The notes beneath the pieces are model-generated. The model worked only from the letters and a program-made list of their open reading frames with translations. It was not told where the DNA came from and made no database searches. 28,009 nucleotides of DNA, from positions 1 through 28,009 of the IMG/VR virus record IMGVR_UViG_3300034198_008826. One strand, written 5' to 3'. How positions within the stretch are numbered: the stretch's first letter is position 1; every line of letters starts with the position of its first letter. Both the position numbers and the translations under genes were made by a program. This stretch comes from a virus. Of this stretch, positions 337 through 22,707 are shown piece after piece.

Positions 337-376
337 TAAAGACCCTCGAATTAATTTTCGAGGGTCTTTACCTTTT
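337..376 (+). terminator. Rho-independent terminator after the capsid gene
   Basis: A perfect 14-bp inverted repeat (337-350 with 357-370; core GACCCTC/GAGGGTC) closes on a 6-nt loop and is followed by CCTTTT. It starts 17 nt after the capsid stop codon. It should stop or reduce most capsid transcripts and so separate capsid dosage from the neck genes. The next promoter begins in its right arm. Confidence 0.85.
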
Positions 377-395
377 AAGCTCGTAATGCTATAAT
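367..395 (+). promoter_or_regulatory. Sigma-70-type promoter with extended -10, upstream of gene 418-825
   Basis: The -10 is a perfect TATAAT at 390-395 with TG at 387-388 (extended -10). A -35-like TTTACC sits at 367-372, exactly 17 nt away. Transcription would start near 402 and give a leader of about 16 nt carrying AAGGAG (407-412) before ATG 418. The -35 overlaps the last bases of the capsid terminator stem. Confidence 0.62.
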
Positions 396-417
396 TGAAC
401 AGAACAAAGGAGATTAT

Positions 418-825
418 ATGTCATTTTCAACAATGAAAATCGCAGAACTCAAACAAATCGCAGAAGACTTTGCAGTGGACCTACCTAATTCAAAGAGCAA
501 AGCAGAAATTATCGCAGCCTTCGCAGAAGAAGGCGTAACTTGGGAAATTTACCAAAAGACATTAAAGAATCTAGAAGATGATTCAATTGAGGCGGATGAA
601 GCAATAGAAGTATTGCCAAAGTTTGACCCAAAGGCGGCAACACCAGAAGATACAACTTTAGTTAGAATGACTAGAGCAAACTTCAGATATGATATTCTTG
701 GATTTACCTTTACAAAGGAACATCCATTTGTAGCTATGCCAACAGAAAAAGCAGAAGAACTTTTTAGAATTGAAGAGGGATTTCGCATGGCTACAGCTAC
801 TGAAGTAAAAGATTTTTACAACTAA
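418..825 (+). CDS. Small SAP/HeH-like protein after the capsid gene (head-tail region)
   Basis: 135 residues; ATG 418 has AAGGAG five bases upstream. Residues 6-40 (MKIAELKQIAEDF, then SKSKAEIIAAFAEEG) resemble the short helix-extension-helix (SAP/HeH/LEM/Rho-N-like) fold often found in phage proteins near the capsid gene. The middle is acidic. The last ~50 residues (HPFVAMPTEKAEELF, then EGFRMATATEVKDFY) resemble the C-terminal part of small connector or head-decoration proteins that read an 'HPF..., GFR.A...EV..FY' pattern. It sits between the capsid gene and the adaptor, and begins a transcription unit through the promoter at 367-395. A role in head completion or capsid decoration is inferred from position; no catalytic motif is seen. 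Confidence 0.6.
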   Translation: MSFSTMKIAELKQIAEDFAVDLPNSKSKAEIIAAFAEEGVTWEIYQKTLKNLEDDSIEADEAIEVLPKFDPKAATPEDTTLVRMTRANFRYDILGFTFTKEHPFVAMPTEKAEELFRIEEGFRMATATEVKDFYN

Positions 826-837
826 AAGGAAGATTAA

Positions 838-1830
838 ATGGCTGAGTTATACGTAAATAGCAACGGAGTTTTGCGTCAAAAAATTTATTGGGCAGGAAAG
901 CCAGTAGATACAGATAATGATGTTTCTGTTGCTGTTTACGATGTAACTGAAGATCCAGCAATTATTCCAGCACTTTCCCCAACATCATTGTTGGGAACAT
1001 ATGCTGCTTCAAATTTAGAAACAGATAATGGAAACTATGAATTAGTTCTTCCATTTAATCTGACTGAAAGAAATAGAAAATTAAAGCTAATTTGGTCTTA
1101 TAGTGTAAATGGAGAGGCTGGACAGCAAACTACGTTTGTTGATGTTGTAACTCCATATACAAATATTTCTGAAGCAATTGATGCTTTAAATTTTGGAGTA
1201 GACCCATCAGACCCAGACTATAAGTCATATGAAGAACTTATGCGGGCAGAAGCTTACGCAAGAAAACTTATTGAGAATTATACATTTGACCAATTTTATC
1301 TTTATGATGATGTTCAAATTGTTTATGGAGCAGGCGACGATTCAATTGCTACTCTTTACAAGGTAAATCAAATTCATGAATTATATGCAAATGATATTCT
1401 ATTGCTTGATAATCCTCACAATATAAATAATATTGGATATGATATTATTCCAGCATCAACTGGATATGGAATTAAAATTGATAGAGGTTCTTCAATCACA
1501 AGAGACAACACCGTGTACCTTGCAAATGGAATGGTGTCTCCAACTGTATATGATTTAGGATTTCAAGGTTTCTTTCAAAAAGGTGTTGCCTACAGAGTCC
1601 AAGGAAGATTTGGATGGGATGCTATCCCAGACGAAGTAAGTCTTGCAACAATTGAACTCATGAAAGATTTCTTTAACAGAGATACACAATGGAAACATAA
1701 GTATGTAAAGAATATTCAGACATTTGACTGGAATTTTGAATATGATCCAGGAGTTTATAATGGAACAGGAAACTTTTATGCTGACAGCATTCTTTCAAAT
1801 TATGTTGTCAAGCAAATGTTGGTGATCTAA
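838..1830 (+). CDS. Head-tail adaptor (gp6/gp15-type) with N-terminal beta-sandwich
   Basis: 330 residues, ATG preceded by AAGGAAG. Residues 1-105 are beta-rich (VLRQKIYWAGKPVD, then YELVLPF and FVDVVTPY), suggesting an Ig-like or decoration-type sandwich. From about residue 125 the sequence becomes helical, with EELMRAEAYARKLIENYTFDQ. That matches the opening helices of phage head-tail connector (adaptor) proteins of the HK97 gp6/SPP1 gp15 kind, which bind the bottom of the portal ring. The adaptor family is usually 100-200 residues, so this is a long, two-part version. It is followed by a TAATG junction to the head-closure gene. The adaptor call rests on the helix pattern and gene order; the role of the N-terminal sandwich is unknown. 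Confidence 0.6.
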   Translation: MAELYVNSNGVLRQKIYWAGKPVDTDNDVSVAVYDVTEDPAIIPALSPTSLLGTYAASNLETDNGNYELVLPFNLTERNRKLKLIWSYSVNGEAGQQTTFVDVVTPYTNISEAIDALNFGVDPSDPDYKSYEELMRAEAYARKLIENYTFDQFYLYDDVQIVYGAGDDSIATLYKVNQIHELYANDILLLDNPHNINNIGYDIIPASTGYGIKIDRGSSITRDNTVYLANGMVSPTVYDLGFQGFFQKGVAYRVQGRFGWDAIPDEVSLATIELMKDFFNRDTQWKHKYVKNIQTFDWNFEYDPGVYNGTGNFYADSILSNYVVKQMLVI

Positions 1831-2258
1831 TGTTAGCAGATTTGGTAGGAACAATCCTGTCAATGAAGGTTGACATTTATGTACAACAAGATTTTCAGGA
1901 TACAGACACAGGTGCAATTAAAAAGTCTTGGATTTTAGACAGAACAATACCATGTTTTGCAAAAGGAAATATTTCAAATTCTTCAAGTGGTCGTGGATCT
2001 GACAGACAAAAATATGGAACAAGATACAAAGACATTGAATCAATTTCAGTAAGAGTTGGAGAATTTATTTCTCACAGAGAAAAACTTGTAAATATTAGAA
2101 GTGATAAAGATCAAACATTATGGTTTGAATTAAATTATCCAACAAGTACACCTACTGTTTTTGAAGTTGTTGGCAATACTCCAATTACCGATCCGTTCGG
2201 TGCAGTACTTGGATACAACTTGATGTGTGCAAGATCGGAAAATCAGACAATTGATTAA
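1830..2258 (+). CDS. Head closure protein (SPP1 gp16 / lambda gpFII type)
   Basis: 142 residues. The start ATG shares one base with the preceding stop (TAATG), and there is no strong ribosome site, so coupled translation is likely. The N-terminal segment MKVDIYVQQDFQDTDTGAI (an internal Met at residue 12) has the usual opening of head-closure 'stopper' proteins: a strand describing a tag such as 'DTGAIKKSW', followed by a small beta barrel (IESISVRVGEFIS, VFEVVGNTPITD). These proteins dock under the adaptor and form the interface to the tail. Length and place in the neck cluster fit. Sequence similarity in this family is always weak, so the assignment leans on gene order. Confidence 0.55.
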   Translation: MLADLVGTILSMKVDIYVQQDFQDTDTGAIKKSWILDRTIPCFAKGNISNSSSGRGSDRQKYGTRYKDIESISVRVGEFISHREKLVNIRSDKDQTLWFELNYPTSTPTVFEVVGNTPITDPFGAVLGYNLMCARSENQTID

Positions 2259-3042
2259 CAATACAATAGCTCTAGAAACAGCTTCACGAGGCTTAGAACG
2301 ACTTATGGTGGGTTCTAAGCAAAAAGGAGTTATAGACGATGGCGGGACAGTTCAAAAAATTTCTGCTGGACTTTATTATCAGGTTAATGTAATGAATTCA
2401 ATGGTAACAGAAGATTGCATATCTCAAGGATATGTAAATAAAATATTTAATAAGATTAAGTTTGATTTAAATGAATTTATGGATATGCAAGCAAGATCTA
2501 AACCAAAATCATTTCACCATGTTTATGAATGGGGAAAAGTTGGTCAATCAGATTCAAGATTGTTTACAATTAATAGATCTAAGCAAAATGGGTTTAATTT
2601 TGTTTTAGGATATGATTTTAAACTTTCAACAACAACTGTTCCAGAAAAAGGAAAAAATCCAAAAAAATATGTTTTTAAAAATAAAGCAATGGTTATGGAA
2701 TATGCAGAGCAAGTAATTGTTCGTCCAAAAAATCCAAAGGCAGGTTTAGCTTTTGATATTGATGGAAAGTTTATTACCCTTGCTGCTGGAAAATCTGTTA
2801 AGATTAATAACCCAGGCGGTAAAGATGTTAAACTTTCATTTGCAAATGCATATACAAGATTTATGTCTGGGCCAGTTCAAAATTCAATTGCTATGTCTGG
2901 AGCTAAAGAATCATTTCAGGCAGTAATAGCAAACTCTATGCATTTGCCAGGTATGATAAAAGCAAAATCTTATTCCTATAATCCAGCATCTGTTAAGAAT
3001 GCCGCAAAGAATGCAGTTCAATTGAACGGGAGAAACATGTGA
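2227..3042 (+). CDS. Neck/minor tail protein, HK97 gp10-like (probable)
   Basis: 271 residues from GTG 2227, overlapping the upstream gene by 32 bases. A start at TTG 2251 (8-base overlap) or ATG 2305 is also possible; none has a good ribosome site. The protein is basic, with lysine-rich stretches and no recognisable catalytic motif. It includes a region around 'HHVYEWGKVG' and a C-terminal helical/basic tail. Position between the head-closure and tail-terminator genes is where gp10-type neck proteins sit. It ends in GTGA shared with the next gene. The function is inferred from gene order; the sequence alone does not name the family. Confidence 0.42.
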   Translation: MQDRKIRQLINNTIALETASRGLERLMVGSKQKGVIDDGGTVQKISAGLYYQVNVMNSMVTEDCISQGYVNKIFNKIKFDLNEFMDMQARSKPKSFHHVYEWGKVGQSDSRLFTINRSKQNGFNFVLGYDFKLSTTTVPEKGKNPKKYVFKNKAMVMEYAEQVIVRPKNPKAGLAFDIDGKFITLAAGKSVKINNPGGKDVKLSFANAYTRFMSGPVQNSIAMSGAKESFQAVIANSMHLPGMIKAKSYSYNPASVKNAAKNAVQLNGRNM

Positions 3043-3551
3043 GTGTAAATTACAAATTGGATTCAGCTAATGAAGTTCGTAAATTTTTATGGCGGGAATT
3101 AGAAGCACAGGGAATCTTCAAAGAGACAGACTATTATTCTGATAATGTTGGGGAGATAATTATCCCTATTATTCCAGTACAACAACAGCCAGAATTAAAT
3201 CAATTCCTTAATGGTAAAAAGCACATAGTCTATGATAAAACTAATATGACTTATGACTCTAATTGGCTTATATGCACTGAAAAGATGCAGTTTACTTTAT
3301 ATGCAATTGATGTGTCTGATATCAATGAAATGAGAAACTTCATTATTGACCTATTTAGAAGAATGGATGAGTCAGCCAGAGATATTAATAGCTTTATGGG
3401 AAATGCTAGTCTTATTAGATTTCATACAATTTATATGTCTGATATATCCCCAATTGCCCCATCAGAAGAATTGCAGGGATTCCTTTCAGCAGATGTTATT
3501 ATTGAGGTAAAGTATTCAAGAGACGTAAATTCAGCAGGTAGATACAAATAA
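3039..3551 (+). CDS. Tail terminator protein (probable)
   Basis: 170 residues from GTG 3039, overlapping the previous stop by 4 bases (GTGA), with GGGAG 3028-3032 upstream. The pattern is a helix (SANEVRKFLWRELEAQG), a strand/loop segment (IPIIPVQQQPEL), strand pairs around QFTLYAIDVSD, a long helix (NEMRNFIIDLFRRMDE), and a final strand VIIEVKYSRD. This alpha/beta layout is typical of lambda gpU / SPP1 gp17-like tail terminators, which form a ring that caps the finished tail tube. It is the last gene before the major tail protein, the expected place. Moderately sure; the fold has not been tested. Confidence 0.55.
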   Translation: MSVNYKLDSANEVRKFLWRELEAQGIFKETDYYSDNVGEIIIPIIPVQQQPELNQFLNGKKHIVYDKTNMTYDSNWLICTEKMQFTLYAIDVSDINEMRNFIIDLFRRMDESARDINSFMGNASLIRFHTIYMSDISPIAPSEELQGFLSADVIIEVKYSRDVNSAGRYK

Positions 3552-3554
3552 CCC

Positions 3555-3583
3555 TTGCTTTATGAACTGATCAACTGTAAAAT
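3555..3583 (+). promoter_or_regulatory. Probable promoter for the major tail protein gene
   Basis: TTGCTT (3555-3560) and TAAAAT (3578-3583) are separated by exactly 17 nt, just after the tail-terminator stop. The -10 matches 5 of 6 bases and the -35 matches 3 of 6, so it is weaker than the other promoters described here. A start near 3590 would give a leader of about 60 nt that includes the small ORF 3599-3631. Confidence 0.4.
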
Positions 3584-3598
3584 TAGAACTGAGGAAAG

Positions 3599-3631
3599 AT
3601 GCCTAGCCAGCAGCCACTAAAAAATTTATAG
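3599..3631 (+). CDS. Ten-codon leader ORF upstream of the major tail gene (possible)
   Basis: ATG 3599 starts a 10-residue frame, MPSQQPLKNL, ending at TAG 3629-3631. A purine-rich GAGGAAAG (3591-3598) lies directly before it and could act as its ribosome site. It is 21 nt upstream of the ATG of the major tail gene, inside its probable leader and just before that gene's AGGAGG. It may be a leader peptide, a relic of an older start, or chance. No conserved domain is possible at this length, so it stays tentative. Confidence 0.25.
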   Translation: MPSQQPLKNL

Positions 3632-3652
3632 TATTCCAGGAGGTGGAAATAA

Positions 3653-4297
3653 ATGGCATTTGAAGCAAAAAATATTATTGTCGGAGCAGCACCGCTGTTC
3701 TTGTCAAAAAAGGATTCAACTAACGCAACATACGCAATAGTTCTTCCAGAAGGAACTAACGTAACAGCTAATACTTCAATTTATGATCCAGCAACTCGTG
3801 AGTTGTCAGGAGCAGGATTATCAGCAGCATATGCAAACGTTGGTTACACAAACAACGGTCTACAAATTACTTACAACCCAACATACGGTTCAGTAACAGT
3901 TGACCAGCTTCTTGATACAGCTAAGCTGTTCAAGGAGTCAATGGAAGTAATGCTTGCAACTGAATTTACAGAAGCAACACTTGAGAACGTTCTTAAGGTA
4001 TTTGGTCAAGGAGCAGACACTCTTTCAAACGATACTCTAGGACTCGAAGCAGGTGCTCTTGGTCAAGAGCCAACAGAGCGTCAACTTATCGCTGTAGGTC
4101 TTGCACCACGTTCATCAGCAAACAAGAAGCGTGAGCGTGTATATTATGCACGTCGTGTACTTTCTGTACAGCAGTCACAATTCACACTTGCACGTAATAA
4201 CCCAACAGTATTTCCAGTAACCTTCCGTCTTCTTCCAGATGCAGCATATGCAGGAGCAGAATACGGTAAGATTATTGACCGTGTAATTGAAGCTTAA
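3653..4297 (+). CDS. Major tail tube protein
   Basis: 214 residues, ATG preceded by an excellent AGGAGG (3639-3644). It begins MAFEAKNIIVGAAPLFLSKK and has the features of a tail tube subunit: an opening strand 'KNIIVGAAPLFLS', alternating short strands, a central Gly/Asn loop region, and a C-terminal 'FPVTFRLLPDAAY' strand followed by a short helix. It lies between the tail terminator and the chaperone pair, the standard place. It has its own probable promoter upstream and a terminator downstream, consistent with hundreds of copies per tail. All ten arginines use CGT, whereas tail genes around it mostly use AGA; this points to selection for fast translation. The identity is firm by context, less so by motif. 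Confidence 0.78.
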   Translation: MAFEAKNIIVGAAPLFLSKKDSTNATYAIVLPEGTNVTANTSIYDPATRELSGAGLSAAYANVGYTNNGLQITYNPTYGSVTVDQLLDTAKLFKESMEVMLATEFTEATLENVLKVFGQGADTLSNDTLGLEAGALGQEPTERQLIAVGLAPRSSANKKRERVYYARRVLSVQQSQFTLARNNPTVFPVTFRLLPDAAYAGAEYGKIIDRVIEA

Positions 4298-4327
4298 TTC
4301 AAAACTTAATAACAACTTAATATAGAG

Positions 4328-4365
4328 GCATGGCCCCCAGAAATGGGGGTCCATGCATTTGGTTT
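4328..4365 (+). terminator. Terminator-like hairpin after the major tail gene
   Basis: GCATGGCCCCCA (4328-4339) pairs with TGGGGGTCCATGC (4344-4356): 12 bp with a single bulged T at 4350, closing on a GAAA tetraloop (4340-4343). The tail is ATTTGGTTT, so the U-run is broken and termination may be partial. It lies 30 nt after the major tail stop and immediately before the next promoter. Confidence 0.72.
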
Positions 4366-4387
4366 ATCAAAACACTTTTGATATAAT
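4359..4387 (+). promoter_or_regulatory. Extended -10 promoter for the chaperone/tape-measure block
   Basis: TATAAT 4382-4387 is preceded by TG at 4379-4380 (TGA-TATAAT). A weak TTGGTT at 4359-4364 lies 17 nt upstream. A start near 4394 would leave a short leader containing AGGAAGAGG (4398-4406) ahead of TTG 4413. Same layout as the promoter at 367-395: terminator, then extended -10, then a short leader. Confidence 0.55.
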
Positions 4388-4412
4388 TAAAGAAATTAGG
4401 AAGAGGAATAAA

Positions 4413-4745
4413 TTGGCAACTACAGTATATAATGTAGAAGAAATCGAATTACAAAGCGGAGATAAGGTAAAGCTTAAGCCTTTATCAATTAAAGAACTTA
4501 GAGAGTTCATGGTCGTCATCGGAAAGACGGCAAACGTATCAACAGAAGATGAAACATTAGATATCCTTATTGAGGCATGTGGAGTAGCACTTAAGAAGCA
4601 GCTACCAGATTTGGTTACAAATAAAGATGCATTTGAAGATGCACTTGATGTTCCAACAATCAACAGAATTCTTGAGGTTTGTGGCGGAATTAATATGTCA
4701 GACCCAAACCTTCTGGCGGCTCAAGTTCTAACTGGTCAGAACTAG
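4413..4745 (+). CDS. Tail assembly chaperone, short form (G-type)
   Basis: 110 residues from TTG 4413. I chose this start because AGGAAGAGG (4398-4406) is well placed, the protein then begins MATTVYNVEEIELQSGDKV, and the alternative ATG 4353 lies inside the terminator hairpin upstream of the promoter. Short acidic chaperones of this kind have a small beta N-terminus ('IELQSGDKVKLKPLS') followed by helices ('IKELREFMVVIG'). They hold the tape measure protein soluble while the tube forms. The gene lies between the major tail and tape measure genes and ends at TAG 4743-4745 within the overlap with the -1 frame, which is the standard design. Conventional termination gives this G-like product. Confidence 0.8.
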   Translation: MATTVYNVEEIELQSGDKVKLKPLSIKELREFMVVIGKTANVSTEDETLDILIEACGVALKKQLPDLVTNKDAFEDALDVPTINRILEVCGGINMSDPNLLAAQVLTGQN

Positions 4746-5077
4746 ATCTAGCCGCTTTAGAAGGACAAGTTTTTCTACTAGGTTTTTGGAAAAATTTTGA
4801 GGACCTAGAAGAAAATCTTTCAATGCCAGAACTTATACACATACTTAAAACTATGGGCAAGAAAGAAGATGATAACAGAAGATTCCAGGCTTCATTGCAG
4901 GGAATAAACCTTGGAGAGGATGAGGTCATTGAGGAAGAGCATTCAAGTTTTGATGAGATCAAAATGAGAGCACTTGGAATTAATGGACTCGAAAACGATA
5001 TCATTGCTCTTCGTGGTTCTGCAGCATCAGCAAAAGGTTTTGGAATAAACGAAGGACTTGGTTATTCCGAAGAATAA
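4413..5077 (+). CDS. Tail assembly chaperone, long form by -1 ribosomal frameshift (GT-type)
   Basis: If ribosomes slip back one base at CCCAAAC (4703-4709), the product is 99 residues of the short form followed by 122 residues read in the -1 frame (4709-5077), 221 in total. The -1 frame is open from 4694, and its joined sequence reads PSGGSSSNWSELDLAALEG after the slip. The flexible Gly/Ser linker is typical of GT fusions. The second half contains an acidic helical domain (MPELIHILKTMGKKEDD) and ends GYSEE. An ATG at 4823 lies within this frame but has no ribosome site, so independent translation is unlikely. The G and GT forms together load and measure the tape measure protein. The tape measure ATG follows 3 bases later. 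Confidence 0.78.
4703..4755 (+). promoter_or_regulatory. Programmed -1 frameshift site: slippery heptamer plus stem-loop
   Basis: C CCA AAC is in the zero frame of the chaperone gene (codons GAC-CCA-AAC), the canonical X-XXY-YYZ layout. Six nt downstream an outer stem GCGGCT (4716-4721)/AGCCGC (4750-4755) encloses an inner stem AGTTCT (4724-4729)/AGAACT (4738-4743) with an 8-nt loop. A downstream RNA structure at this spacing commonly promotes slippage. Confidence 0.82.
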
Positions 5078-5080
5078 AAA

Positions 5081-11000: not shown

Positions 11001-11365
11001 AAGGTGGACTTATGTTTGGTCCAGGAACTGGAACATCTGATTCAATTCCAGCAATGCTTTCTAGAGGAGAGTATGTTGTTAAAGCATCTGCTGTTCAAAA
11101 ATATGGCGTTGGCACATTAGATAGCATTAACTCTCTTAAGATGGCAGCAGGCGGAATGGTAATGTCATATGGAGACACTTCAAGATATATGGGCGGCGGA
11201 AGAATTGCTATGGCACAGGGTGGACAAGCTACCACTGGAAATGTTATAATTTCTAATAACATTACTGTTAATGGAACAAACCTATCTGGTGATGAAATTG
11301 CAAGAGCAATTACTGTTGAACAAAATCGTCAAATGGCTATGAGCGGAAGAAGAAGGACTTATTAA
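5081..11365 (+). CDS. Tape measure protein, 2094 residues
   Basis: The longest gene here, three bases after the chaperones; no strong ribosome site, so coupling to GT translation is likely. Residues 1-200 are helical and Gln/Asn rich. About 205-430 resembles the TP901-type tape measure core (FMQIDTELTRLTKVYGGLS, then ELSSAYGVNFKETIALAADI and MKEGGVDAASAANGLKSALG). Hydrophobic segments lie near 532-575, 1213-1260 and 1280-1305 and may enter the host membrane at DNA ejection. Residues about 847-1140 are an unrecognised Gly/Ser/Pro-rich region. A motif of the form IPAML..GE.VV.....A....Y occurs twice, near 1152-1180 and 1980-2018. A long Ala/Gln coiled coil spans about 1617-1775. No lysozyme or peptidase motif (such as HxxxD...H of M23) is evident. 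At roughly 0.15 nm per residue the tail would be about 300 nm, unusually long. Confidence 0.93.
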   Translation: MTENINTQITASADFSSLISQIHQAVSQLALLQQKIGASNVALSQQINASNNAFANTLKNSNQFSTHFVTLAGDTEKFGKALDQGKLKLKDYYNSWQQYHRQGTGLIKDLAKQQAALQNAIVQPMGRNAQGQMQFNVHVPAGIDELANKTKIAKQEMSILNKVMSDGANQLINWGKNTQWAGRQLTVGLTVPMAAFGQAAAQSFMQIDTELTRLTKVYGGLSATSQTELTKVRNETIKTAKELSSAYGVNFKETIALAADIAATGKQGNELMSSLRETTRLSVLGEVSRQDAMKATLAIQNAFKQNTTELGQSIDFLNAVENQTSTTLQDLVNAIPKAGPVVKGLGGNVKDLALMLVAMKEGGVDAASAANGLKSALGSLINPTKTAKGLFQSFGIDLGSIVNNNAGHVTDTIMALQEALNKLNPLQKQQALEALFGKYQFARMGALFDNLGKKGSQTLQVLDLMKASTQDLAGVAQRELAQQTESASGKYKRALESLRADLATVGSGFLGVSTNLLKIADGILKAFNALPSPVKKFVTLLGGLTAVAGPIIMLTGVFSNFLGYVLKGFAGIRAFFSHADKFKLLTPDIRAANEAGLLIEKTFYSDAEAAIVLKNALSALKLEMQQIAALANEHTITAKPLVGGISGTQIGGLDFAHYNPQARLTEEQRLQQTFHTAIPLDPSTNKKIGENPQVMMMPGQGIAKVQGLTMINGATTGINAAESAKWNAMMTTMAMRTKSEMQAVEKVLIETGQLPAEFMADFNVILPKMQAIATTAAESSARVARSAEQGILSVKAAQSEIEAINAAMIADMNALSIASGVPQARMTMVPGTNTAIASGTAVAGNQDYNMRSVLRSGEGRMGGITSRISNALKIGIRRIKLQNGGTAIGHYSKGFTPKSAMAAARMLKAFAKRSSGIGGLRTPNLRGTGSGPSTISASEAGTGISFGLLTKRNSKVYQDPTIQEYGITPTSGNDFLVHALTPGYRARTASLPTMGTQSTPSVPADRFAEFGITTSSKSPYLQTLPTQFVKNTKQFNEALRAGADASQFRQVTGPDMVSLLLFLKDQGVSAGKAKVIAERAANVLNELVASSNVPITEELFGNMVNRASVRAIRSGFLPSMTRVVDSMGYDMHTRNRGLAPVPYANGVTKLPGYGGGDIIPAMLEPGESVVTKQATARYAPIIDMMNKGQLPGFAQGVTGIGKLGNFAKNIITGPGIVASLVGGIAGQNIGNQLGGTFGGLAGGIIGPALLSPVMKLGGALFNVAKAGGGVRTVLMGLRTALMANPWGLAITGTLAVAAGMWKLWDNARKARQASVDAFKLTGKEAAEAKIKVVSFSDNIKSAMENAKKQAELNKALIESTKIAGGTGGLNMTVKELKEMQKSAKETMPDIVKMFDQMDRSDVVANAAALKAQFVAGGKSAEEASKMIFSIISVSNKAGMAVKAISSQAFVDIKDKATAATSSIIAFNNAMKVGADKKELAAAFDSAMSSVDAYYQSLVGSKDETGHIITQTEALAMSMDKLNKNAKTNKAIGADQLAILLKERPEMLGILSATDSTADAYAKIKLYTSGIAADLTNISGKQAQSMLSAQTALQQSATNITTDASLGAPTSGLAALGTKAATDSKNAAAAASAAAKAAQRDITAETNAIDKKIQAIKAEADARKKALSEQQASADISLQIQQQQLKYQQAIATGNMADAASAQLEIQKLSGQRQTQLAQNAIDNKAQSQTEALQSQKDGLAASIAAAQKKATDLQGKATGAADYSSKIQAIQQAIAGLISETSLTSDPATIKANGIKLSQQLDALRKLGSEGVKAANAIAPTSGKVYNGSTLENKPTDYAQVLQQLASKNEQNAKDQKLFSGSVSDFAAAVALFKGVNTTGSNTTFTSGKAAAAAFNKKTGGSWGASQFDNFETKANTNSDSVSSQFGKGMGYSEGTEFSVDHNFKRYTYKMQKNKDGNLYAAFESVTQLPKKAQGGLMFGPGTGTSDSIPAMLSRGEYVVKASAVQKYGVGTLDSINSLKMAAGGMVMSYGDTSRYMGGGRIAMAQGGQATTGNVIISNNITVNGTNLSGDEIARAITVEQNRQMAMSGRRRTY

Positions 11366-11823: not shown

Positions 11824-13811
11824 TGATCTCTGTAGGAACAGATGCGGACGACCTTGCCGTAAAAAATCTATTATCTCAAAGCACAAGCATGTCTATGGAT
11901 ATTGGTGCAACAATTGATATTAATGTAAATTCAATGGTAGACTTTACAAGTTCTTCTATTACTGGAAATGATTATACTACGATTGCAAATCGTCAGCCAT
12001 TTAAAAAGCTTTTTCCATTGGATACAATTGTAAAGCCATTAAGACCAGTTTCGGCGGGAATTAAATATGGGGTATCAGGAGATGTTGCACAATATACATA
12101 TGCAGATCCCACTACAGTTACATATACTCCAGATGCACAAAAAACAAATACAATTAAATATAGAACCTATTATCCAGGTTCAGACACATATTACAAATAT
12201 TGGCTAAGCCCAAAAGATCAGAACGCATCCCTTGCGATTACATATCCAAAAACAGTTTATGCAAATAAAATAATTATAACATTTGAAATTAGTCATTCGA
12301 TGCCATCTGCCTGGTCTATTACAGTTGGTTCCTCAACAATATCTGGAACATCAGCAGATATTAAAAACTTCAATTCAACAAAGTTTGATGCTGGGCAGTT
12401 GGCACTTTATTACAATGGAACAACATGGAGCAAAAATGCTTCAGATATTAATTTAAATTCTTATGCAAGCTTTACAACAATGTCAATGACCGCCACAAAT
12501 CCAGGCGGATATATTGGAGTAATTGAATTTGCACCACACTGGGTAAGAGATTTGACACCATATGTAGTTGATTTTAATTTAAGAAAAGAATCTTCAGCAA
12601 GTACTGAAGCACTAATTCCAGTAGGAAACATTACCGCAAACTCTTTATCAATGATGTTAAATAACTATAATGGCAATCAATCTTCTGGATCAATTTACTT
12701 TGAAACATATTTGAAGTCAACAACAATTGATATTACAAAGATGTATTTATACAAGCAAGCTCAAATAAATCTTTATATAAAATTATACAATTCAGGCGGA
12801 GGGTATTCAGATTCAAAGGGATCTTATTATAAGATTAATCAAGGAACATTTTATTTAGATTCATGGGATATCGCAGAGTATGGTGATGTTACTTTAAACG
12901 GACTTGATGGAGCAAAAATTCTTCAAGAAACATTAGCACCAGATATTTTTTGCGATGGCTATTCGTCCGTAGCAATTATTAGAAGATTGCTTGATGCAGT
13001 AGGATTTACAAATTATAGCTTTAACTACAATACAAATGATCAATCAATTATTTCTCCAAATTACTGGTGGACAGATGCCACAATGACAGTTTGGGATAAC
13101 TTACAAAATCTTTGCAGAGATTCTCAGATGAGTGCTGTTATGGATGAAAACAATGTATTGCAGTTTTATACAAGAGACTTTATCTATGATGCTACTAAGT
13201 CTGTAAACTATCAGTTTAGAAATTCTTTTAGTGGATCTGATTTATCAAATATAATTTCATTGGTTAAAAAAGATTTGCCATCTGTTAATCAGGTAAAAAT
13301 TATTTACTACAGTGCCGTAAGCTCTGCATACGACCAAAGTAGTGCACCTCTTTGGTCATCTGGACAATCATTTCTTGCCGCAGCAGCATTGGTTGAAAAT
13401 ATTTTAACTAGTGATGTTCCTTCAATAGGAGTAAAAAAATATCTTCATCTTAATCCAATTGTTATTAATGATTTAAATGCAGAGCAAATTGTTTATAGTT
13501 ACAACGGATTTTTTATGGTGGGATCTGAGATTATAGAGTATGATGCTATAGAATATCAATATACAGATATTAATACGTTAGATTCTAAAACAATTGATGT
13601 TACTGGAGAATCTGATCTTCTTAAATATCGTGGGCAAGCAAAAATTAATGCAACCCCAGGAAATAATTTATATCAAACAACATTTACGCCAACTGGAAGA
13701 TATAGAATTAAAACCAGAGGAGCGTTTGGCACAAAGATCGAAAATCATTATGTTAATGCAAAAAATGATTCAGATGGTTGGTCTGGATATAAAGGCGTGG
13801 TGTGGAAGTAA
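11823..13811 (+). CDS. Tail tip/hub protein, N-terminal half (probable split hub)
   Basis: 662 residues with a TAATG junction. Residues 1-120 are a Ser/Thr-rich beta region. Residues around 130-240 form a jelly-roll-like segment (NASLAITYPKTVYANKIII, then WVRDLTPYVVDFN). The middle and C-terminal part (TLNGLDGAKILQETLAPDIF, then IIRRLLDAVGF and WDNLQNLCRDSQMSAVMDEN, FYTRDF) resembles the baseplate hub fold (T4 gp27-like, prophage tail endopeptidase-associated Tal N-domain): a ring that docks on the tail tube and carries a short linker to the next domain. The protein stops at residue 662 where relatives usually continue; the next gene appears to hold the rest. No peptidase motif was seen. Confidence 0.55.
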   Translation: MISVGTDADDLAVKNLLSQSTSMSMDIGATIDINVNSMVDFTSSSITGNDYTTIANRQPFKKLFPLDTIVKPLRPVSAGIKYGVSGDVAQYTYADPTTVTYTPDAQKTNTIKYRTYYPGSDTYYKYWLSPKDQNASLAITYPKTVYANKIIITFEISHSMPSAWSITVGSSTISGTSADIKNFNSTKFDAGQLALYYNGTTWSKNASDINLNSYASFTTMSMTATNPGGYIGVIEFAPHWVRDLTPYVVDFNLRKESSASTEALIPVGNITANSLSMMLNNYNGNQSSGSIYFETYLKSTTIDITKMYLYKQAQINLYIKLYNSGGGYSDSKGSYYKINQGTFYLDSWDIAEYGDVTLNGLDGAKILQETLAPDIFCDGYSSVAIIRRLLDAVGFTNYSFNYNTNDQSIISPNYWWTDATMTVWDNLQNLCRDSQMSAVMDENNVLQFYTRDFIYDATKSVNYQFRNSFSGSDLSNIISLVKKDLPSVNQVKIIYYSAVSSAYDQSSAPLWSSGQSFLAAAALVENILTSDVPSIGVKKYLHLNPIVINDLNAEQIVYSYNGFFMVGSEIIEYDAIEYQYTDINTLDSKTIDVTGESDLLKYRGQAKINATPGNNLYQTTFTPTGRYRIKTRGAFGTKIENHYVNAKNDSDGWSGYKGVVWK

Positions 13812-15186: not shown

Positions 15187-15205
15187 AAATGGTATAATTA
15201 AAATT
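15187..15205 (+). promoter_or_regulatory. Extended -10 promoter, possible leaderless start for gene 15206
   Basis: TATAAT 15193-15198 with TG at 15190-15191 (TGG-TATAAT) lies 7 nt before ATG 15206. A transcript started 7-8 nt after the -10 would begin at or next to the ATG. No ribosome site precedes that ATG. The -35 position (15170-15175, TCCATT) is poor, so the extended -10 would carry the promoter. Confidence 0.5.
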
Positions 15206-15598
15206 ATGACTAATGCTAACATTTCCAGCAACCAAGTAGCAAAAAATGCTCCGATATTTTTAACGGCAGATTCACCAGAGCTATATTACCTAGACCCATC
15301 CTTTGTAAGAATTATTTCTGCAAATGCTACCACTAGCTATGTTAATGCATATTTGTCTGGCGGAAATTTTGGAGGAGGAAGTGGGCCAGTTGTTCCACCA
15401 TCAAATCCAGTTGATCCAGTTAATCCAAAAACTCCAGCAAAAGGAAAAAAGCTTCCACCAGATCTTTCTGATATTTCAATTTATAAACAAGAGATTGATT
15501 ACACGGTTAATCCCCCAAAAGTTAATATTACATTTAGAGTAAAAAATTCAACTGGACTATCAGTTGTCGGACTGAATATGTTGGTGCCTAAGCAATGA
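15206..15598 (+). CDS. Small tail-tip protein with Pro-rich linker
   Basis: 130 residues. ATG 15206 has no ribosome-binding site, but a perfect extended -10 ends 7 bases upstream, so it may be translated from a leaderless mRNA. Residues 1-52 form a small beta domain (NAPIFLTADSPELYYLDPSF); residues 53-84 are a Gly then Pro-rich linker (GGGSGPVVPPSNPVDPVNP); residues 85-130 form a second strand region (ISIYKQEIDYTV, ITFRVKNSTGLSVVGLNML). That last block is a recurring small domain I know from phage tail-tip proteins ('YKQ.I.Y....P..VTF.VKNS.G'), but its function is not established. Stop and next start overlap as ATGA. It likely sits at the tail tip beside the hub. Confidence 0.5.
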   Translation: MTNANISSNQVAKNAPIFLTADSPELYYLDPSFVRIISANATTSYVNAYLSGGNFGGGSGPVVPPSNPVDPVNPKTPAKGKKLPPDLSDISIYKQEIDYTVNPPKVNITFRVKNSTGLSVVGLNMLVPKQ

Positions 15599-16470: not shown

Positions 16471-18593
16471 TGGCAGGACTATTAATCCCAGCTGATCTTA
16501 ACGTAAAAGGATATGCAGATCCTTCCGATAAGAATTACTTTGACGTAAAAGCAACAGGCTTACTTCCAAACACTGGATATGGATTTCAATTTCAATGGGT
16601 GTTTGAAGATGGAACAACAAGTGATTGGTCAGCAACAAGATATGTTTTGACAGATTTAATTTCAACTCCTGGACAACCAGATCTTGGCGTTAACGATGTG
16701 GTTGGCGGAGCTGGATATATTAAAGTAAATTGGTCAGGAACATCTCAAGGTTCTCCAATCACAAACATTTCAAGAGTTGATGTTTATATAAGCGGTGCAC
16801 CATTTGACGGAACAAAACCAGCGGAAACATTTGTTACATCTGGTACTAAAACAATTGCAGCCCCAGGCGGAACCTATATTGTAAAACTACAAGCCATTCG
16901 TCCAGATGGCACAACCTCTTCATTATTTAGTCTTTCAAGAACTGTAGTTGTGACAGACATTGTTACCGAAACAATACAAGATCCAACAAATCCAAATGGT
17001 TTTTCCATAGACAGAATTCTTTCTGGAATTCAAGTAAATTGGGCAGGAACATACGCCAATGGAACATTTACTGGATTTCAAGCAATTAAAATTTATGTAG
17101 GCAATTCAGCAACCGCTACAGCTGGAACATATAAAGAAGCTGGTGTAATGACTGGCAACAATCTTAAAAATACAATTACAATTCCAGTAGACGGAACATA
17201 TTTAAATTATGATACTCCAGTTTACATTCATGCAGCAGCAGTAAACAAAAATGGAACAGTTGGAACCATACAGCAAAATGTTGCTAACGAACCGCTTGGA
17301 GCAAGATCTGCAATACCATCTGATTTAGCAAATCAAATTATTACAAATGCAAAATTAGTTGATGCTGCAATTACTGAAGCTAAAATTGCTACATCAGCAA
17401 TTACAACAACTAAAATTGCAGATGATGCAATCACATCATCCAAAATTATTGCAAACGCTATTACTGCAGATAAAATAGTTTCATCAGCAATTACTGCAGA
17501 TAAAATTGCTGCAAATGCTATTACTGCTGGCAAAATTTCTGCTGGATCAATTGATGTTACAAAATTAGCAGCAGGAACTATATCGGTTAATAATTTAGAG
17601 GCTGGCTTGATTACAAGCACATCATATATTCGTGCAGGTGCATCAACTGGTGCTAGAGTTGAAATATCAAGTTCAAATATAACTAATGGTCCATCTGCTG
17701 GATTTTACATTTATGATTCAACTGGTGTAGCAATTCTTTCAGCTCCACTAGCTGGAGGCCTATCAATAACTGGCGGTGGAACATTTAGCGGAAACTTGCA
17801 AGGAGCTGGCGGTACATTTACTGGTGCATTAAATGTTGGAACACAAAATGCTGGTGGATTATATCCATTTAGTGTTTCTAATAATGGGTATATGAGAACT
17901 ATAAATGCATCAATTGGTGGATTTATAATTGACGACACTTCTATATCAGCAAACAATAATACTTTTCAAATGAACAGTACAAATGGCAGACTTGCTGTAG
18001 GAACAATAACAGATTCACACATTGAAATTGACGGAACAAATGGAATCATTCATAAAAACAATTCTTCAGCAACTGGTAATTTTCAATTAACACCAACAGG
18101 ATCTTTAACATTAGGTTCAAGTTCTGGATCTAATTATTTTTCTTGGACTGGATCAGCATTAACTGTTAAATCTACAAGCGTTTCTTTTATTGGAGATAGT
18201 GCTTCATCATTTACAGTTAATTCAAACGGAATTTCTTTAATAGGAAACCCAAGAACTTCAGGTTCTGGAACAGATACCTGGGCAGCATACAGTGGTGGAA
18301 CTCAAATTTTAGCTAATAGCACAGGTCTTCATATGTATGGAATACCAGTTCAGCAAGATGCAGACATTGCATACCGTGCACAAGGAGCATACGATCCTCA
18401 TCCAGGATATAGAAAAGGTTCAGGCGGTCAAGATTTATATCCATTAGGTGCAGTTGGAAGACAAAGAATGGTTGTTGAAAGACCTGAAACTGGCGAACTT
18501 CAAATGGGTATGGCTGTTTACTATAGAGCAACTGGCAACTCTGATCCAGGATATACTTCTGGGTATGTAGGAGATTTGTGGGTAGTGTACTAA
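16470..18593 (+). CDS. Tail fibre with FN3 domains and decapeptide repeats
   Basis: 707 residues, TAATG junction. Residues ~1-165 and ~170-275 look like FN3-type domains (GYIKVNWSGT, IQVNWAGTYANG, each with 'G.....LQAI..DGTTS'-type strands). Residues 300-379 are eight tandem decapeptides of the form AITxxKIxxx, drifting to SID/TIS near the end. This repeat type occurs in lambda gpJ-like and related fibres and probably winds into a trimeric shaft. Residues ~420-600 contain GGTFSGNLQGAGGTFTG and GGFIIDDTSISANN, a beta-prism-like fibre body. The last ~90 residues (GAVGRQRMVVERPETGELQM, ending YVGDLWVVY) form a compact, different C-terminal domain, a candidate tip. Likely a trimeric side or central fibre involved in host recognition. 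Confidence 0.68.
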   Translation: MAGLLIPADLNVKGYADPSDKNYFDVKATGLLPNTGYGFQFQWVFEDGTTSDWSATRYVLTDLISTPGQPDLGVNDVVGGAGYIKVNWSGTSQGSPITNISRVDVYISGAPFDGTKPAETFVTSGTKTIAAPGGTYIVKLQAIRPDGTTSSLFSLSRTVVVTDIVTETIQDPTNPNGFSIDRILSGIQVNWAGTYANGTFTGFQAIKIYVGNSATATAGTYKEAGVMTGNNLKNTITIPVDGTYLNYDTPVYIHAAAVNKNGTVGTIQQNVANEPLGARSAIPSDLANQIITNAKLVDAAITEAKIATSAITTTKIADDAITSSKIIANAITADKIVSSAITADKIAANAITAGKISAGSIDVTKLAAGTISVNNLEAGLITSTSYIRAGASTGARVEISSSNITNGPSAGFYIYDSTGVAILSAPLAGGLSITGGGTFSGNLQGAGGTFTGALNVGTQNAGGLYPFSVSNNGYMRTINASIGGFIIDDTSISANNNTFQMNSTNGRLAVGTITDSHIEIDGTNGIIHKNNSSATGNFQLTPTGSLTLGSSSGSNYFSWTGSALTVKSTSVSFIGDSASSFTVNSNGISLIGNPRTSGSGTDTWAAYSGGTQILANSTGLHMYGIPVQQDADIAYRAQGAYDPHPGYRKGSGGQDLYPLGAVGRQRMVVERPETGELQMGMAVYYRATGNSDPGYTSGYVGDLWVVY
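17367..17606 (+). repeat. Eight tandem 30-bp units encoding decapeptide AITxxKIxxx
   Basis: Units start at 17367, 17397, 17427, 17457, 17487, 17517, 17547 and 17577, in frame with the fibre. Units 4 and 5 are the closest at DNA level (sharing ATTACTGCAGATAAAAT). The regular period and conserved Ile/Lys positions suggest a structural repeat. The last two units are degenerate. Confidence 0.85.
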
Positions 18594-21500
18594 ATGCCAT
18601 TTTGGGTAAAAGATAGTGCGTATTCTTGGTCTCCTGTAAAAGAATTATGGGTTAAAGTAGCAAGCAATGGATCTGGTGCTTGGCAATTGGCTTCTGAGGC
18701 ATGGGTAAAAGTTTCATCAACTGGATCAAGTGCTTGGAAAAAGTTTTATACTAATACTTCTTTAAAGCCATACAGCACTGTACCAATTTCAATTAGAACT
18801 TCAAGTTATACTGGAACAAATGTAAGTGGATCATATACTTATGTGGGAACAAAATTATGGGGAAATGAGTCTGTAAGTCCAACTAACTATTGGCAAAATG
18901 GTCCTTTTACAAGTACATCTTATAATTGGTATTATAGTAAAACATCTGATGGTTCTGGATTATTAGATGGTTATACAAACATTGATACGTTTGATTCAAC
19001 ATATTATGATGGATATTACATTTACTTTCAAGTTAAAAAAACAAATTCAAGAGGTCTTTCTGGAACAGAAACAAGTTCTCCAGCATATATATGTTTACAC
19101 GTTCCAACTCATGGAACAAATACTTTTGGTCTTACTACAACTGCAGCACAAGTCGGGACACCGATAACCTTTGCCTACTCTTGGAAAAATTCTAGTTCTT
19201 ATGGAATTGATACGTCTAGATCAACAATTGAATGGTATAGGGGATATCCATATGCAGATAAAAGAAATTTAATTGAATCAAAAACATATTCGCAGCTTGT
19301 TGCCACATCTTATGGATCAGATTATTATGGAACTTATTCTTATACTCCAATAACTGCAGATCTAAATAATAACATTTATGTTGTGTCAACTGCATACAAT
19401 TCTTATACAGATTATACTTCATCTCCAATTGTAGACACATATTCTTCTGATGTTATTTATACTAAGCCTATAATTAATAATCCAGTAACTATAAATAAAG
19501 ACGGCGGTTATCAAACATATGGGTATAATTTAAGTGCAAATACTCAAACGTATACTCCAACATCAGATCTAGTTTATTGGGGTTGGCAATATGCATCAAC
19601 AAATACTGCAACTACAGGAAGAACATTTTATCATTATATAAGTCCACCAGGAATACAAGTAAATGATTTTGGTTCAGATTCGTATGAGGGCGGAACACAC
19701 ACATTTACTTTGAGAGACGTATACGATAATGCAACAGGAAATACCGTATCTTTAGTTGGACAGTATTTAAGATTTTATTCTATTGGTCAAAAAGGCGGGG
19801 CACAATCAGATGTAAACTATTCTTCTTGGATTGGTCCAATATATAATGCCCCAGTTGCACCAACTACAGGTCCATCTATAAGTTTTGCAGGAGCATATAG
19901 TGCTTCATATGCATACATACGTGCATTTTGGGATCCAGTAACATATACCAAAGACTATACACTTCAATATAAGTCTGGAAGTTCTTGGGTAGATTTAGTA
20001 ACTTTAACAACCGCACCACAATATGCTTCAACAGATTCATTTTTGGTTCCAGTAGGAAGTCAAATATTTAGAGTCAGAACAAGAAATGATGACGGAATAA
20101 ATTTATATTCTCCAGAAGTAACCTATGTTGTGACTGGAACTTATAACTTTGCTTTTGGAAATTATTTATATCCAAATACAAATGGTCAAATCGGTTTGGA
20201 TGGTGGAGTTCAAACTGTATATCCTTCTTCTGGAAGAGCTATTGGAGTTTATCCATTAGACATGGCAGAAACTACAACTGGATATTATTCAGATAGTAGA
20301 TATTTTTATATTCAATTTTCTGGATATCAATATCAAAATGTTGGAACTGCAACATATGCACTTAGATATCAAGTAAAATTTGATACCTTAAATCCTACAT
20401 ATGCTGATGTTTTAATATGCAATAAGGGATCATCTTTGCCTTTAACAGTAACTCAACCTGGACTCTATAATGGATCAAATGCAGTTTCTGGACTTCCAGG
20501 ACCATATGTTATTTCTACTGGTACAAAATATAGAATATATATGGACGGAACTATTGGAAGCTTTGGACAAACTCAAGCACAGATTCCATCTTCAAATTTC
20601 ATTACAGATTCCTTGGCTTATGGTACAGCAGATGATGGATATCACAGTATTGCAACTTCAGCAAATCAATATCAAAAAAATATGCTATCAGTTACATCAG
20701 CAACAGTTGATTCAAGTGGAGTACATGTTTCGTTTACTGGACTTAATGATTATTCTTATTACAACTATACACTAAATACTGGAAGTTATAGCGGATCTGT
20801 TTGGAATTCTTTAAATAGCCAAACTGCTAATCCTTTAAATATTGGAAGTTTAACAGGTGGTACTACATATTATTTAACAATCACACCTTACAACTCTTTG
20901 GGACAAGCTGGAAACGTATATCAAAATTCATTTACAGCCCCAAATAATCCACAACCATTTACAACAACCAGCGGAAGCAAAGGTTTTCCTTCTGGAGCAA
21001 CACAGTCTGTATCTGAACCATCTGGAAATAGAACAGTTACAGTGGGATGGAATTCATCTACAAATTCTGCTGTATATGAGGTAGCACTACAAGGAAGTAC
21101 AGATAACAGTACATGGAGTTATGTAACAATTGGTGGAGTATCTCAAACTTTAGATAATTCGGCATATGTTTTGTCTGGAACAAGTAAAACCTTTACAGCA
21201 CCATACTATAGATATTACAGATATACTGTTCGTGGAAGAGGCTCAGACTATAGCTTGTCAAATGCAGTATATAGTGATTATGGAACATCCACTAGTTTAG
21301 TTTGGAAAAATGTTGATGGAACTGCTCCAAGTTCTGTAAGTCTAGGAACTATAACAAAAACTACTACAACTGCTTCTATTCCATTTACAATTCCTTCTGG
21401 AGGATCAAATACAGTAGACTGGATTCAATATTCAACTGATTTAGTTAGTTGGACCAATACTTATACAAGCCCACTATCTTTATCAAGTTTAAGTGCAAAT

Positions 21501-22499
21501 ACATCTTATAACTATTATATTAGAGCTTTAAACTGGGATCAGATAGCTGGATCATATTCAACTGCAAGTTTTACAACAGATCAAATTGCAGTTCCTACAA
21601 ATAGTTCTGTGCCAACACTTAGCGGAACAACAAAAGTTGGACAGACATTAACATTTGGTGTCGGTTCTTGGACTGGTTCACCAACTTCATATTCTTTGAG
21701 GCTTTATAGAGGAACAGCTGGAGTTGCAACGTCTGAAACTTTGGTTAAAGATGCTGGAAATACAACAAGCAGTACATATGCTATTCCTTTATCTGATTAT
21801 ACAGATGCACAAAGTAATAGCAGATATTACTACAGAGCATTTGCAACAGCAACAAATGCTGGTGGAACTTCTAATAGCGGTACATATACGGCTGGTACTG
21901 AATTAGGACCTCTTACAAATATAGTTTTGTATACAGTAACATTTGATGCAAATGGTGGAAGCAGTACTCCTTCTGCAGTTACACAAACTACAGAAGGAGG
22001 ATCAGTAACATTAGCCGCTGCAATATCAAGAACTGGATATACATTTGGAGGATGGAATACAAATTCTTCTGGTACGGGAACCAACTATTCTGCATCTTCT
22101 TCATATACTCCAAGTGCAAATATTACTTTATATGCAAAATGGACAGCAAATGTTACAATTCCTCCAACCCCAACTATATCAATTTATGGTTATGGTAGTT
22201 CTAATAATTCAACGGCATCTGGATTTACAATTGCTTCTTCAGGTGCAACATCTGTAAACTGGTATTTGTACAGAACTGCAACTGGAACTGGAACTACTGG
22301 TTATGGAACTGGAACGTATACACAGGTTGCATCAGGATCATATGCCACGTCTGGAAGTGTTAACGTATTTATTTATCTTGCTTATGCAAATTCAAATGGA
22401 TATTACTACCTTACCGCATCCGCAACAAATAGTGCAGGAACTAGCTCAATTTCTTCTAGATTTCCTGCAGCAGCTACAAGAAACTGGTTTTATTACTAA
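18594..22499 (+). CDS. Large multidomain tail fibre/adhesin-like protein, 1301 residues
   Basis: Starts immediately after the previous stop (TAAATG) with no ribosome site. Residues 3-51 hold three short tryptophan repeats (FWVKDSAY, LWVKVASNGSGAW, AWVKVSSTGSSAWKK), a known phage/prophage tail module. The next ~650 residues are Ser/Thr/Tyr-rich beta domains without clear family. FN3-like units follow near 698-784, 804-906 and 913-996. An Ig-like unit lies at ~1000-1103 (VPTLSGTTKVGQTLTFGVGS, with TNAGGTSNSG at its end). An InlB B-repeat (listerial/Flg_new type) lies at 1113-1184: YTVTFDANGGSS, then GYTFGGWNTNSSGTG and ITLYAKWTA. A Gly/Thr/Tyr-rich tail ends NWFYY. The domain set resembles bacterial surface adhesins. 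The likely role is receptor binding at the tail tip. Confidence 0.65.
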   Translation: MPFWVKDSAYSWSPVKELWVKVASNGSGAWQLASEAWVKVSSTGSSAWKKFYTNTSLKPYSTVPISIRTSSYTGTNVSGSYTYVGTKLWGNESVSPTNYWQNGPFTSTSYNWYYSKTSDGSGLLDGYTNIDTFDSTYYDGYYIYFQVKKTNSRGLSGTETSSPAYICLHVPTHGTNTFGLTTTAAQVGTPITFAYSWKNSSSYGIDTSRSTIEWYRGYPYADKRNLIESKTYSQLVATSYGSDYYGTYSYTPITADLNNNIYVVSTAYNSYTDYTSSPIVDTYSSDVIYTKPIINNPVTINKDGGYQTYGYNLSANTQTYTPTSDLVYWGWQYASTNTATTGRTFYHYISPPGIQVNDFGSDSYEGGTHTFTLRDVYDNATGNTVSLVGQYLRFYSIGQKGGAQSDVNYSSWIGPIYNAPVAPTTGPSISFAGAYSASYAYIRAFWDPVTYTKDYTLQYKSGSSWVDLVTLTTAPQYASTDSFLVPVGSQIFRVRTRNDDGINLYSPEVTYVVTGTYNFAFGNYLYPNTNGQIGLDGGVQTVYPSSGRAIGVYPLDMAETTTGYYSDSRYFYIQFSGYQYQNVGTATYALRYQVKFDTLNPTYADVLICNKGSSLPLTVTQPGLYNGSNAVSGLPGPYVISTGTKYRIYMDGTIGSFGQTQAQIPSSNFITDSLAYGTADDGYHSIATSANQYQKNMLSVTSATVDSSGVHVSFTGLNDYSYYNYTLNTGSYSGSVWNSLNSQTANPLNIGSLTGGTTYYLTITPYNSLGQAGNVYQNSFTAPNNPQPFTTTSGSKGFPSGATQSVSEPSGNRTVTVGWNSSTNSAVYEVALQGSTDNSTWSYVTIGGVSQTLDNSAYVLSGTSKTFTAPYYRYYRYTVRGRGSDYSLSNAVYSDYGTSTSLVWKNVDGTAPSSVSLGTITKTTTTASIPFTIPSGGSNTVDWIQYSTDLVSWTNTYTSPLSLSSLSANTSYNYYIRALNWDQIAGSYSTASFTTDQIAVPTNSSVPTLSGTTKVGQTLTFGVGSWTGSPTSYSLRLYRGTAGVATSETLVKDAGNTTSSTYAIPLSDYTDAQSNSRYYYRAFATATNAGGTSNSGTYTAGTELGPLTNIVLYTVTFDANGGSSTPSAVTQTTEGGSVTLAAAISRTGYTFGGWNTNSSGTGTNYSASSSYTPSANITLYAKWTANVTIPPTPTISIYGYGSSNNSTASGFTIASSGATSVNWYLYRTATGTGTTGYGTGTYTQVASGSYATSGSVNVFIYLAYANSNGYYYLTASATNSAGTSSISSRFPAAATRNWFYY

Positions 22500-22696
22500 T
22501 GAACGATATAAACTTTGAAAAAATAACAAATGAGAAAATACAGATATATTTGGATAGAAAAATAAAATTTCAATCCATAATAGATTTGTCTGAAGATGAA
22601 CAAGAAAAAGCTTGGTTATCAAATGCGATAATTGAAATGGACAAGATAATTGAGTCTTTTAGGCTAAATTTAGAGTCCTTGACCCAACAGGGTTAG
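22499..22696 (+). CDS. Small coiled-coil protein, function unknown
   Basis: 65 residues, TAATG junction with the big fibre gene. The sequence is highly charged and helical (KITNEKIQIYLDRKIKFQSIIDLSEDEQEK, split here only for its charge pattern: Lys/Glu/Asp with Ile/Leu at heptad-like intervals). It has no cysteine pair, no membrane segment and no signal peptide. The last codons of this gene contain the -35 element of the promoter at 22679-22707. It could be a fibre chaperone or trimerisation helper, but nothing in the sequence decides this. Confidence 0.5.
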   Translation: MNDINFEKITNEKIQIYLDRKIKFQSIIDLSEDEQEKAWLSNAIIEMDKIIESFRLNLESLTQQG

Positions 22697-22707
22697 TTTG
22701 CTATAAT
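22679..22707 (+). promoter_or_regulatory. Near-consensus sigma-70-type promoter
   Basis: TTGACC 22679-22684, a 17-nt spacer and a perfect TATAAT 22702-22707 with TG at 22699-22700. This is the best promoter match in the window. A start near 22714 would leave a leader of about 10 nt, so the AGGAGGAGG (22710-22718) would be partly used as the ribosome site for ATG 22724. Confidence 0.72.

Follow-up and report, generated by a model that had tools for sequence, protein, structure and literature searches.

We suggest that the structural genes of a large phage, represented by a 28,009-nucleotide stretch of DNA (IMG/VR record IMGVR_UViG_3300034198_008826, positions 1 to 28,009; hereafter the window), are very probably read as several transcription units. 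Judged from sequence comparison, host-type promoters of the extended -10 kind would restart transcription segment by segment inside the structural block, once on a leaderless messenger RNA (mRNA). The window, a 28-kb virus fragment of 35.7% GC, is part of an aquatic relative of the Stanwilliamsviridae and Trinavirus phages. Its proteins match phage head, tail and replication families; among named phages they are nearest to those of Rhodococcus phages and of the Streptomyces-infecting Stanwilliamsviridae. Its gene order is kept in Jay2Jay, Comrade and Trina. Over the parts compared it is 99.99-100% identical to a contig of 109,063 bases (G001), in which it starts at position 39,679.

Extended -10 boxes at fixed gene junctions

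A preliminary description of the window, made from its letters alone, had placed the element TGN-TATAAT directly before genes 418 (ATG start), 4413 (TTG), 15206 (ATG) and 22724 (ATG), at the junctions that we call A to D. It is located exactly there: TGNTATAAT stands on the plus strand at 387-395, 4379-4387, 15190-15198 and 22699-22707, each time with TG one base before a TATAAT-like hexamer. Conservation and position together are decisive for these boxes. Using tblastn, we collected the upstream sequences of orthologues of 27 window genes, dropping matches that began after query residue 6, had no start codon near the aligned start or lay too near a contig end, and clustered them at 90% identity over 80 nucleotides (nt). 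The working consensus TGNTANAAT was found at junctions A to D in 102 of 103 distinct orthologue clusters (A, 28/28; B, 32/32; C, 22/22; D, 20/21), against 14 of 589 clusters at 22 other junctions, four of which hold just one to four clusters and are little informative. At a further junction, E, ahead of gene 23673, 28 of 39 clusters have it, at a greater distance from the gene. In column profiles the box hardly varies while its surroundings do, most clearly at C. The motif is kept in 38 of 55 aligned segments at site 15190 and in 12 of 14 at site 22699; we take the non-keeping type at 15190, which has a gap at the motif's end, as an alignment-edge effect.

The position of the boxes relative to genes points the same way. 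Promoters, the preliminary description had reasoned, should be more frequent upstream of genes than inside them, and this is what we saw. Four of the six exact sites in the window lie no more than 60 nt upstream of a start, as do 3.3% of strand positions (P ~2e-5). In nine related phage contigs totalling 976,885 bases, with starts called by our own simple codon-score gene finder (the junction comparison took them from the tblastn alignments), 102 of 181 TGNTATAAT sites fall within this distance of a same-strand start, against 3.6% expected and 3 of 91 for the reversed word. Because the relatives share ancestry, the P values for the nine-genome enrichment and for the tests of intragenic sites and of the 6-nt spacing described below, all of which assume independent sites, are too small. 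Summed over twenty relatives there were 364 forward motif words and 186 reversed ones. Of 24 words tried in the nine genomes, the next most enriched upstream of starts share the pattern: CGNTATAAT (11/38), TGNTACAAT (22/94), TGNTAAAAT (32/152), TGNTAGAAT (14/92) and GTNTATAAT (11/79). The two remaining exact sites in the window, which the preliminary description did not list, are intragenic, at 11242-11250 (plus strand, in the tape-measure gene) and 12273-12281 (minus strand, inside gene 11823). None of the aligned relatives keeps them (0 of 11 and 0 of 54, respectively), and we rejected them as promoters.

Putative terminator-promoter fusions and a predicted leaderless gene

Two of the four boxes directly follow a terminator hairpin. 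All three hairpins that the preliminary description had named as terminators (337-376, 4328-4365 and 23624-23647) exist: stretches holding 337-370, 4328-4356 and 23624-23644 have minimum free energies of -22.6, -24.3 and -14.0 kcal/mol, which were matched in 0 of 200 shuffles each. The first, on the plus strand after the major capsid gene, has a 14-bp stem (337-370) and a T-rich tail. Inside that tail lies the -35-like TTTACC of promoter A (367-372), at a spacing of 17 nt from the extended -10 TGCTATAAT (387-395), and RNA would start near 402. Relatives have TTTTCA at 17 nt, so that at A the T-tract of the terminator doubles as the -35 hexamer. The second terminator, after the major tail protein gene, has a core stem with one bulge (4328-4356) and is followed by the -35-like TTGGTT of promoter B (4359-4364), whose TTG at 17 nt is kept in relatives, and by the extended -10 TGATATAAT (4379-4387), with a start expected near 4394. 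A T-tract follows the stem at A and at E; at B it is weak in the window and better in relatives. The hairpins are kept in 27 of 28 clusters at A and 32 of 32 at B, as against 2/32, 8/43, 4/42 and 3/26 at four control junctions. Across the nine genomes, the commonest distance from a terminator-like hairpin to a following -10 box of this kind is 31-50 nt (20 of 201 promoters). The proposed link between promoters and terminators holds at A and B and does not extend to C (1/22), where we rejected a terminator, or strictly to D (14/21).

The -35 of promoter D, TTGACC (22679-22684, plus strand), agrees with the standard hexamer at five of six bases and stands 17 nt before the extended -10 TGCTATAAT (22699-22707), with a probable start near 22714; most relatives have a TTGAC-type -35 and an extended -10 at this junction. 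With four of six bases at A, three of six at B and no -35 at C, the earlier claim that three of the four boxes have a recognisable or near -35 at 17 nt is roughly right.

Junction C is of a different kind. Promoter C, the extended -10 TGGTATAAT (15190-15198, plus strand), precedes a gene of 130 amino acids (15206-15598, plus strand) that has no family match, and its -10 ends 6 nt before the ATG in 21 clusters and 7 nt before it in one, that of the window. Transcription starts about 7 nt downstream of a -10 box, so the C transcript would begin at 15205-15206, on the ATG itself; its mRNA would be leaderless and need no Shine-Dalgarno sequence. We read the upstream sequences by eye and saw no Shine-Dalgarno sequence ahead of gene 15206, whose first residue is common to 26 aligned orthologues. 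Promoter C is, on these predictions, a leaderless promoter, a feature that the preliminary description missed. In all eight named phages with junction C (six of Streptomyces and two Trinavirus), the -10 likewise ends 6-7 nt before the ATG, and the Streptomyces phages have TATAAT without the TG; two Weaselvirus phages lack the junction and were left uncounted. The leaderless gene of the C family occurs in all nine genomes. Counted there without gene calling, an ATG at exactly 6 nt follows 29 of 181 TGNTATAAT sites, against a mean of 3.5 and a maximum of 8 for other spacings, a peak that agrees with RNA starts about 7 nt after the box. The box begins with TGG at 13 of 16 leaderless sites and 7 of 85 leadered ones, many of the 16 belonging to one gene family.

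A TANNNT about 12 nt before the start codon marks leaderless genes, according to PMC3160421, and a -10 at about this distance was found at C in 22/22 clusters and 8/8 named phages. Gene 15206 is like the leaderless genes of Actinobacteria and other bacteria described in PMC3160421 and PMC4633059 in having this box and no Shine-Dalgarno sequence; it differs from them in lying in a phage structural block and in its extended -10, mostly with TGG.

We suggest the following mechanism. Most transcripts from upstream would stop at intrinsic terminators behind the genes for the major capsid and major tail proteins. Just downstream, at A and B, host RNA polymerase carrying its main sigma factor would begin anew at the extended -10 promoters. 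Promoter D would restart transcription ahead of three small genes, and promoter C, without a -35 or a preceding terminator, would start RNA at the ATG of gene 15206. The likely benefit is that much capsid and tail-tube protein could be made while the amounts of the rest are set separately. Conservation of the junctions amid changing sequence and the enrichment upstream of starts support the segment-by-segment expression that was proposed at the outset. If this is true, large actinophages set the stoichiometry of the virion by restarting transcription inside the structural block, and a tail-region gene has kept a leaderless start in phages of Streptomyces, of Rhodococcus and of unknown aquatic hosts. 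Cultured relatives have the same layout, which makes the reading directly testable.

Several neighbouring features deserve mention. In the first gene of segment A (418-825, plus strand; phrog_9487), the N-terminus weakly resembles Rho_N (E 0.0033, below cut-off) and also weakly matches an endonuclease VII family. Segment B opens with a tail assembly chaperone gene (4413-4745, plus strand, TTG start), so annotated in relatives; CCCAAAC at 4703-4709 is in frame for a -1 programmed frameshift, and the shifted frame is open to 5077. The three small genes of segment D lie on the plus strand at 22724-22957, 22959-23141 and 23144-23587. The AlphaFold model of the leaderless gene product was poor (predicted local distance difference test score, 58). 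In the Streptomyces phages BillNye and Wakanda the leaderless -10 is immediately preceded by a strong inverted repeat, about 40 nt ahead of junction C. In Rhodococcus phages, TGNTANAAT ends exactly 6 nt before several annotated genes of the structural region (Grayson 7202, 8630, 13198 and 17086; Trina 5514 and 13764), and leaderless candidates are more numerous in Grayson and Trina than in the window. Two annotated starts, Trina 11321 and Grayson 21406, are overlapped by the extended -10 and have no ATG at the 6-nt spacing; they may be too early. If our reading is true, start-site rules drawn from these promoters would correct gene starts.

Readers of the promoters and competing explanations

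Several points weigh against our reading. The number of exact boxes in the window is not significant by itself, 6 against 3.08 expected, and 8 of 100 shuffled sequences reach 6, so the comparison with shuffled sequence that had been proposed as a check gives no support, and we draw no significance from it. No strict terminator precedes C or D, and at B this genome has a weak T-tract. Nor do the relatives count as independent: nine of the leaderless sites represent one gene family. A long read-through operon may also exist beside the restarts.

We favour a host sigma factor as the reader of the boxes, and the description of the promoters as host-type finds indirect support: the boxes are sigma70-like, and none of 9 relatives gave a match to Sigma70 region 2. 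A match to Sigma70 region 4, below cut-off and in a frame of about 50 amino acids, occurs in 5 of the 9. The main rival is that a phage factor alters the host RNA polymerase and thereby confines the activity of these promoters to late infection. We consider this unlikely, while giving it more weight than any other explanation of the boxes at A to D apart from our own. The -35 is weak or missing at A, B and C, as it is where an activator or an altered sigma contact helps, a different upstream element marks a class of boxes on the opposite strand (see below), and the region 4 matches could belong to such a factor. However, an extended -10 can act without a -35, no upstream element is common to A to D, and no sigma region 2 was found in the relatives.

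A second explanation, which we think very improbable, concerns C alone: its conservation might serve not transcription but translation, either because ribosomes reinitiate behind the upstream stop codon or by way of the short frame ATG-GTA-TAA. The upstream gene does stop at the box, and ATGGTATAA reads as a frame of two codons; yet similar boxes stand 6 nt before unrelated genes, and the Streptomyces phages keep the -10 at this junction without the ATGG context. That the boxes are chance in an AT-rich genome with a single long late operon, like that of mycobacteriophages L5 and D29, is scarcely credible: the modest motif count and the single-operon precedent (PMC5712189) speak for it, and the conservation at four junctions and the upstream enrichment refute chance as the origin of the boxes.

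The comparison with known phages bears on how unusual this arrangement is. For L5 and D29, PMC5712189 places the late start about 230 bp from the left end of the genome and the stop at the gene 32-33 terminator. Like them, the phage of the window has actinophage late genes in one direction and a terminator at the end; unlike them, with their one late start, it has at least four conserved promoters inside the block. The cluster O mycobacteriophages (Corndog) also have several host-type promoters: PMC4351075 predicts SigA promoters for them. Some of these are predicted to be leaderless, including one within the structural operon, and the major tail subunit gene is followed by a predicted terminator. 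There, the leaderless promoter of the structural operon drives one leftward gene, whereas the promoters described here restart forward structural genes at fixed junctions kept across many phages. Cluster K mycobacteriophages have start-associated sequences, GGGATAGGAGCCC, which PMC3203893 proposes to act in translation. Like these, our element is repeated a few nucleotides before start codons; unlike them, it is a -10 promoter box, and in the junctions whose upstream sequences we read, this box was seen and not GGGATAGGAGCCC 3-7 nt before the starts. In the open-access literature we did not find junctions fixed across a phage group, fused terminator-promoters, a kept leaderless gene or the arrangement at junction E. 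Open papers on Stanwilliamsviridae promoters, TGTCAG phage promoters, promoter-proximal terminators with antitermination and Streptomyces phage promoters gave no report in which we recognised these elements.

Searches for further clues to function and host were negative. Rfam gave no match in the window, and Pfam no family above cut-off for eight window proteins. Genome contigs scanned with the major tail protein yielded 64 candidate stretches, none of them a relative. A scan of genome contigs for AAATGGTATAAT-N6-ATG was uninformative on the host, AT-rich genomes of many phyla being among the matches listed. WhiB, sought as a marker of an actinobacterial centre, was found in 0 of 3 genomes.

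Junction E and the opposite-strand class

At the border of the replication genes, promoter E (TTGACA-N16-TACACT, 23584-23611, plus strand), which is absent from the preliminary description, would start RNA near 23618. Directly ahead of it lies the hairpin with a T-tract at 23624-23647 (minimum free energy for 23624-23644), and then the first gene after E, a metallophosphoesterase gene (23673-24482, plus strand). The stable stem and T-tract agree with the earlier reading of this hairpin as a terminator; that a conserved promoter points into it does not suit a plain one. TTGACA with a 16-nt spacer is found in 38 of 40 relatives, and the TG in 34. In 39 of 40 a hairpin starts 6-16 nt downstream of the -10 (for one, the program chose another stem); it is followed by at least five T in 8 nt in 33 of 40 and shows compensated stem changes. 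The gene start mostly follows the hairpin by 17-22 nt, and by 28 nt in the window. In 17 of 33 relatives the -10 is an arm inside a perfect inverted repeat, which occurs in two covarying forms and is a candidate operator.

By analogy with phage lambda, in which a promoter followed by a terminator (pR'-tR') works with Q, we consider that promoter E could be a gate: without the action of an antiterminator, the hairpin would stop most transcripts at a length of about 30-35 nt. This reading is tentative, and we hold it slightly more likely to be wrong than right. Besides the conservation of promoter, spacer, hairpin and T-tract, the compensated stem changes and the covarying repeat over the -10 argue for it, as does Comrade, which by eye has the same order of promoter, hairpin, T-tract and gene with an unrelated hairpin. 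Against it, we identified no antiterminator, and the E hairpin lies much nearer the start than in lambda; the hairpin of Annadreamy has no T-tract, and by eye there is no such hairpin at E in Jay2Jay, Yaboi or the Rhodococcus phages. A scan for the order promoter-then-hairpin gave 5 of 18 sites when a -35 was included and 3 of 519 with the extended -10 alone, the latter no more than the reversed control (4/273). Both versions together mark six places, all with E-type hairpins, and only the -35 version stands out. There are two rival readings of E. In one, the hairpin would block late transcripts that run into it, and RNA made from E would get past and carry it as a stabilising 5' structure. 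In the other, the short RNA would be the product in its own right.

The second element without a known reader, besides the promoter facing a hairpin at E, is strand-specific. The nine genomes have 57 sites at which GTCAG precedes YGNTANNAT by exactly 7 nt, against 0-2 at each other spacing from 3 to 13. All but one of them (56 of 57) lie on the strand that does not carry the structural genes. It was absent from all 199 upstream sequences at A to E, and its nearest site begins about 20 nt past the right end of the window. Further relatives have 55 sites of this TGTCAG class in 9 of 10 records, and ten named phages have one site in total. In a scan of viral contigs, 71 among the 80 matches listed share proteins with the clade; the remaining nine mostly resemble chance matches. 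Middle promoters of T4 that depend on MotA have an extra element near -30 and a good -10. The TGTCAG class is like them in combining an upstream element with a -10, and differs in sequence and spacing; no activator was identified.

Taken together, one extended -10 box with three kinds of surroundings might form a timing code. The structural block would contribute fused terminator-promoters and a leaderless start. Small genes on the opposite strand would have TGTCAG exactly 7 nt upstream of the box, read in a MotA-like way with a phage-coded or host-specific factor. At the replication-gene border, a strong promoter into a hairpin would be a gate opened by antitermination. We regard this reading as rather unlikely. 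In G001, the TGTCAG class occupies roughly 99-108 kb on the minus strand (for example at 107948, 105861 and 104583), and in other relatives the matching side; its sites stand 24-38 nt before the starts of mostly small genes.

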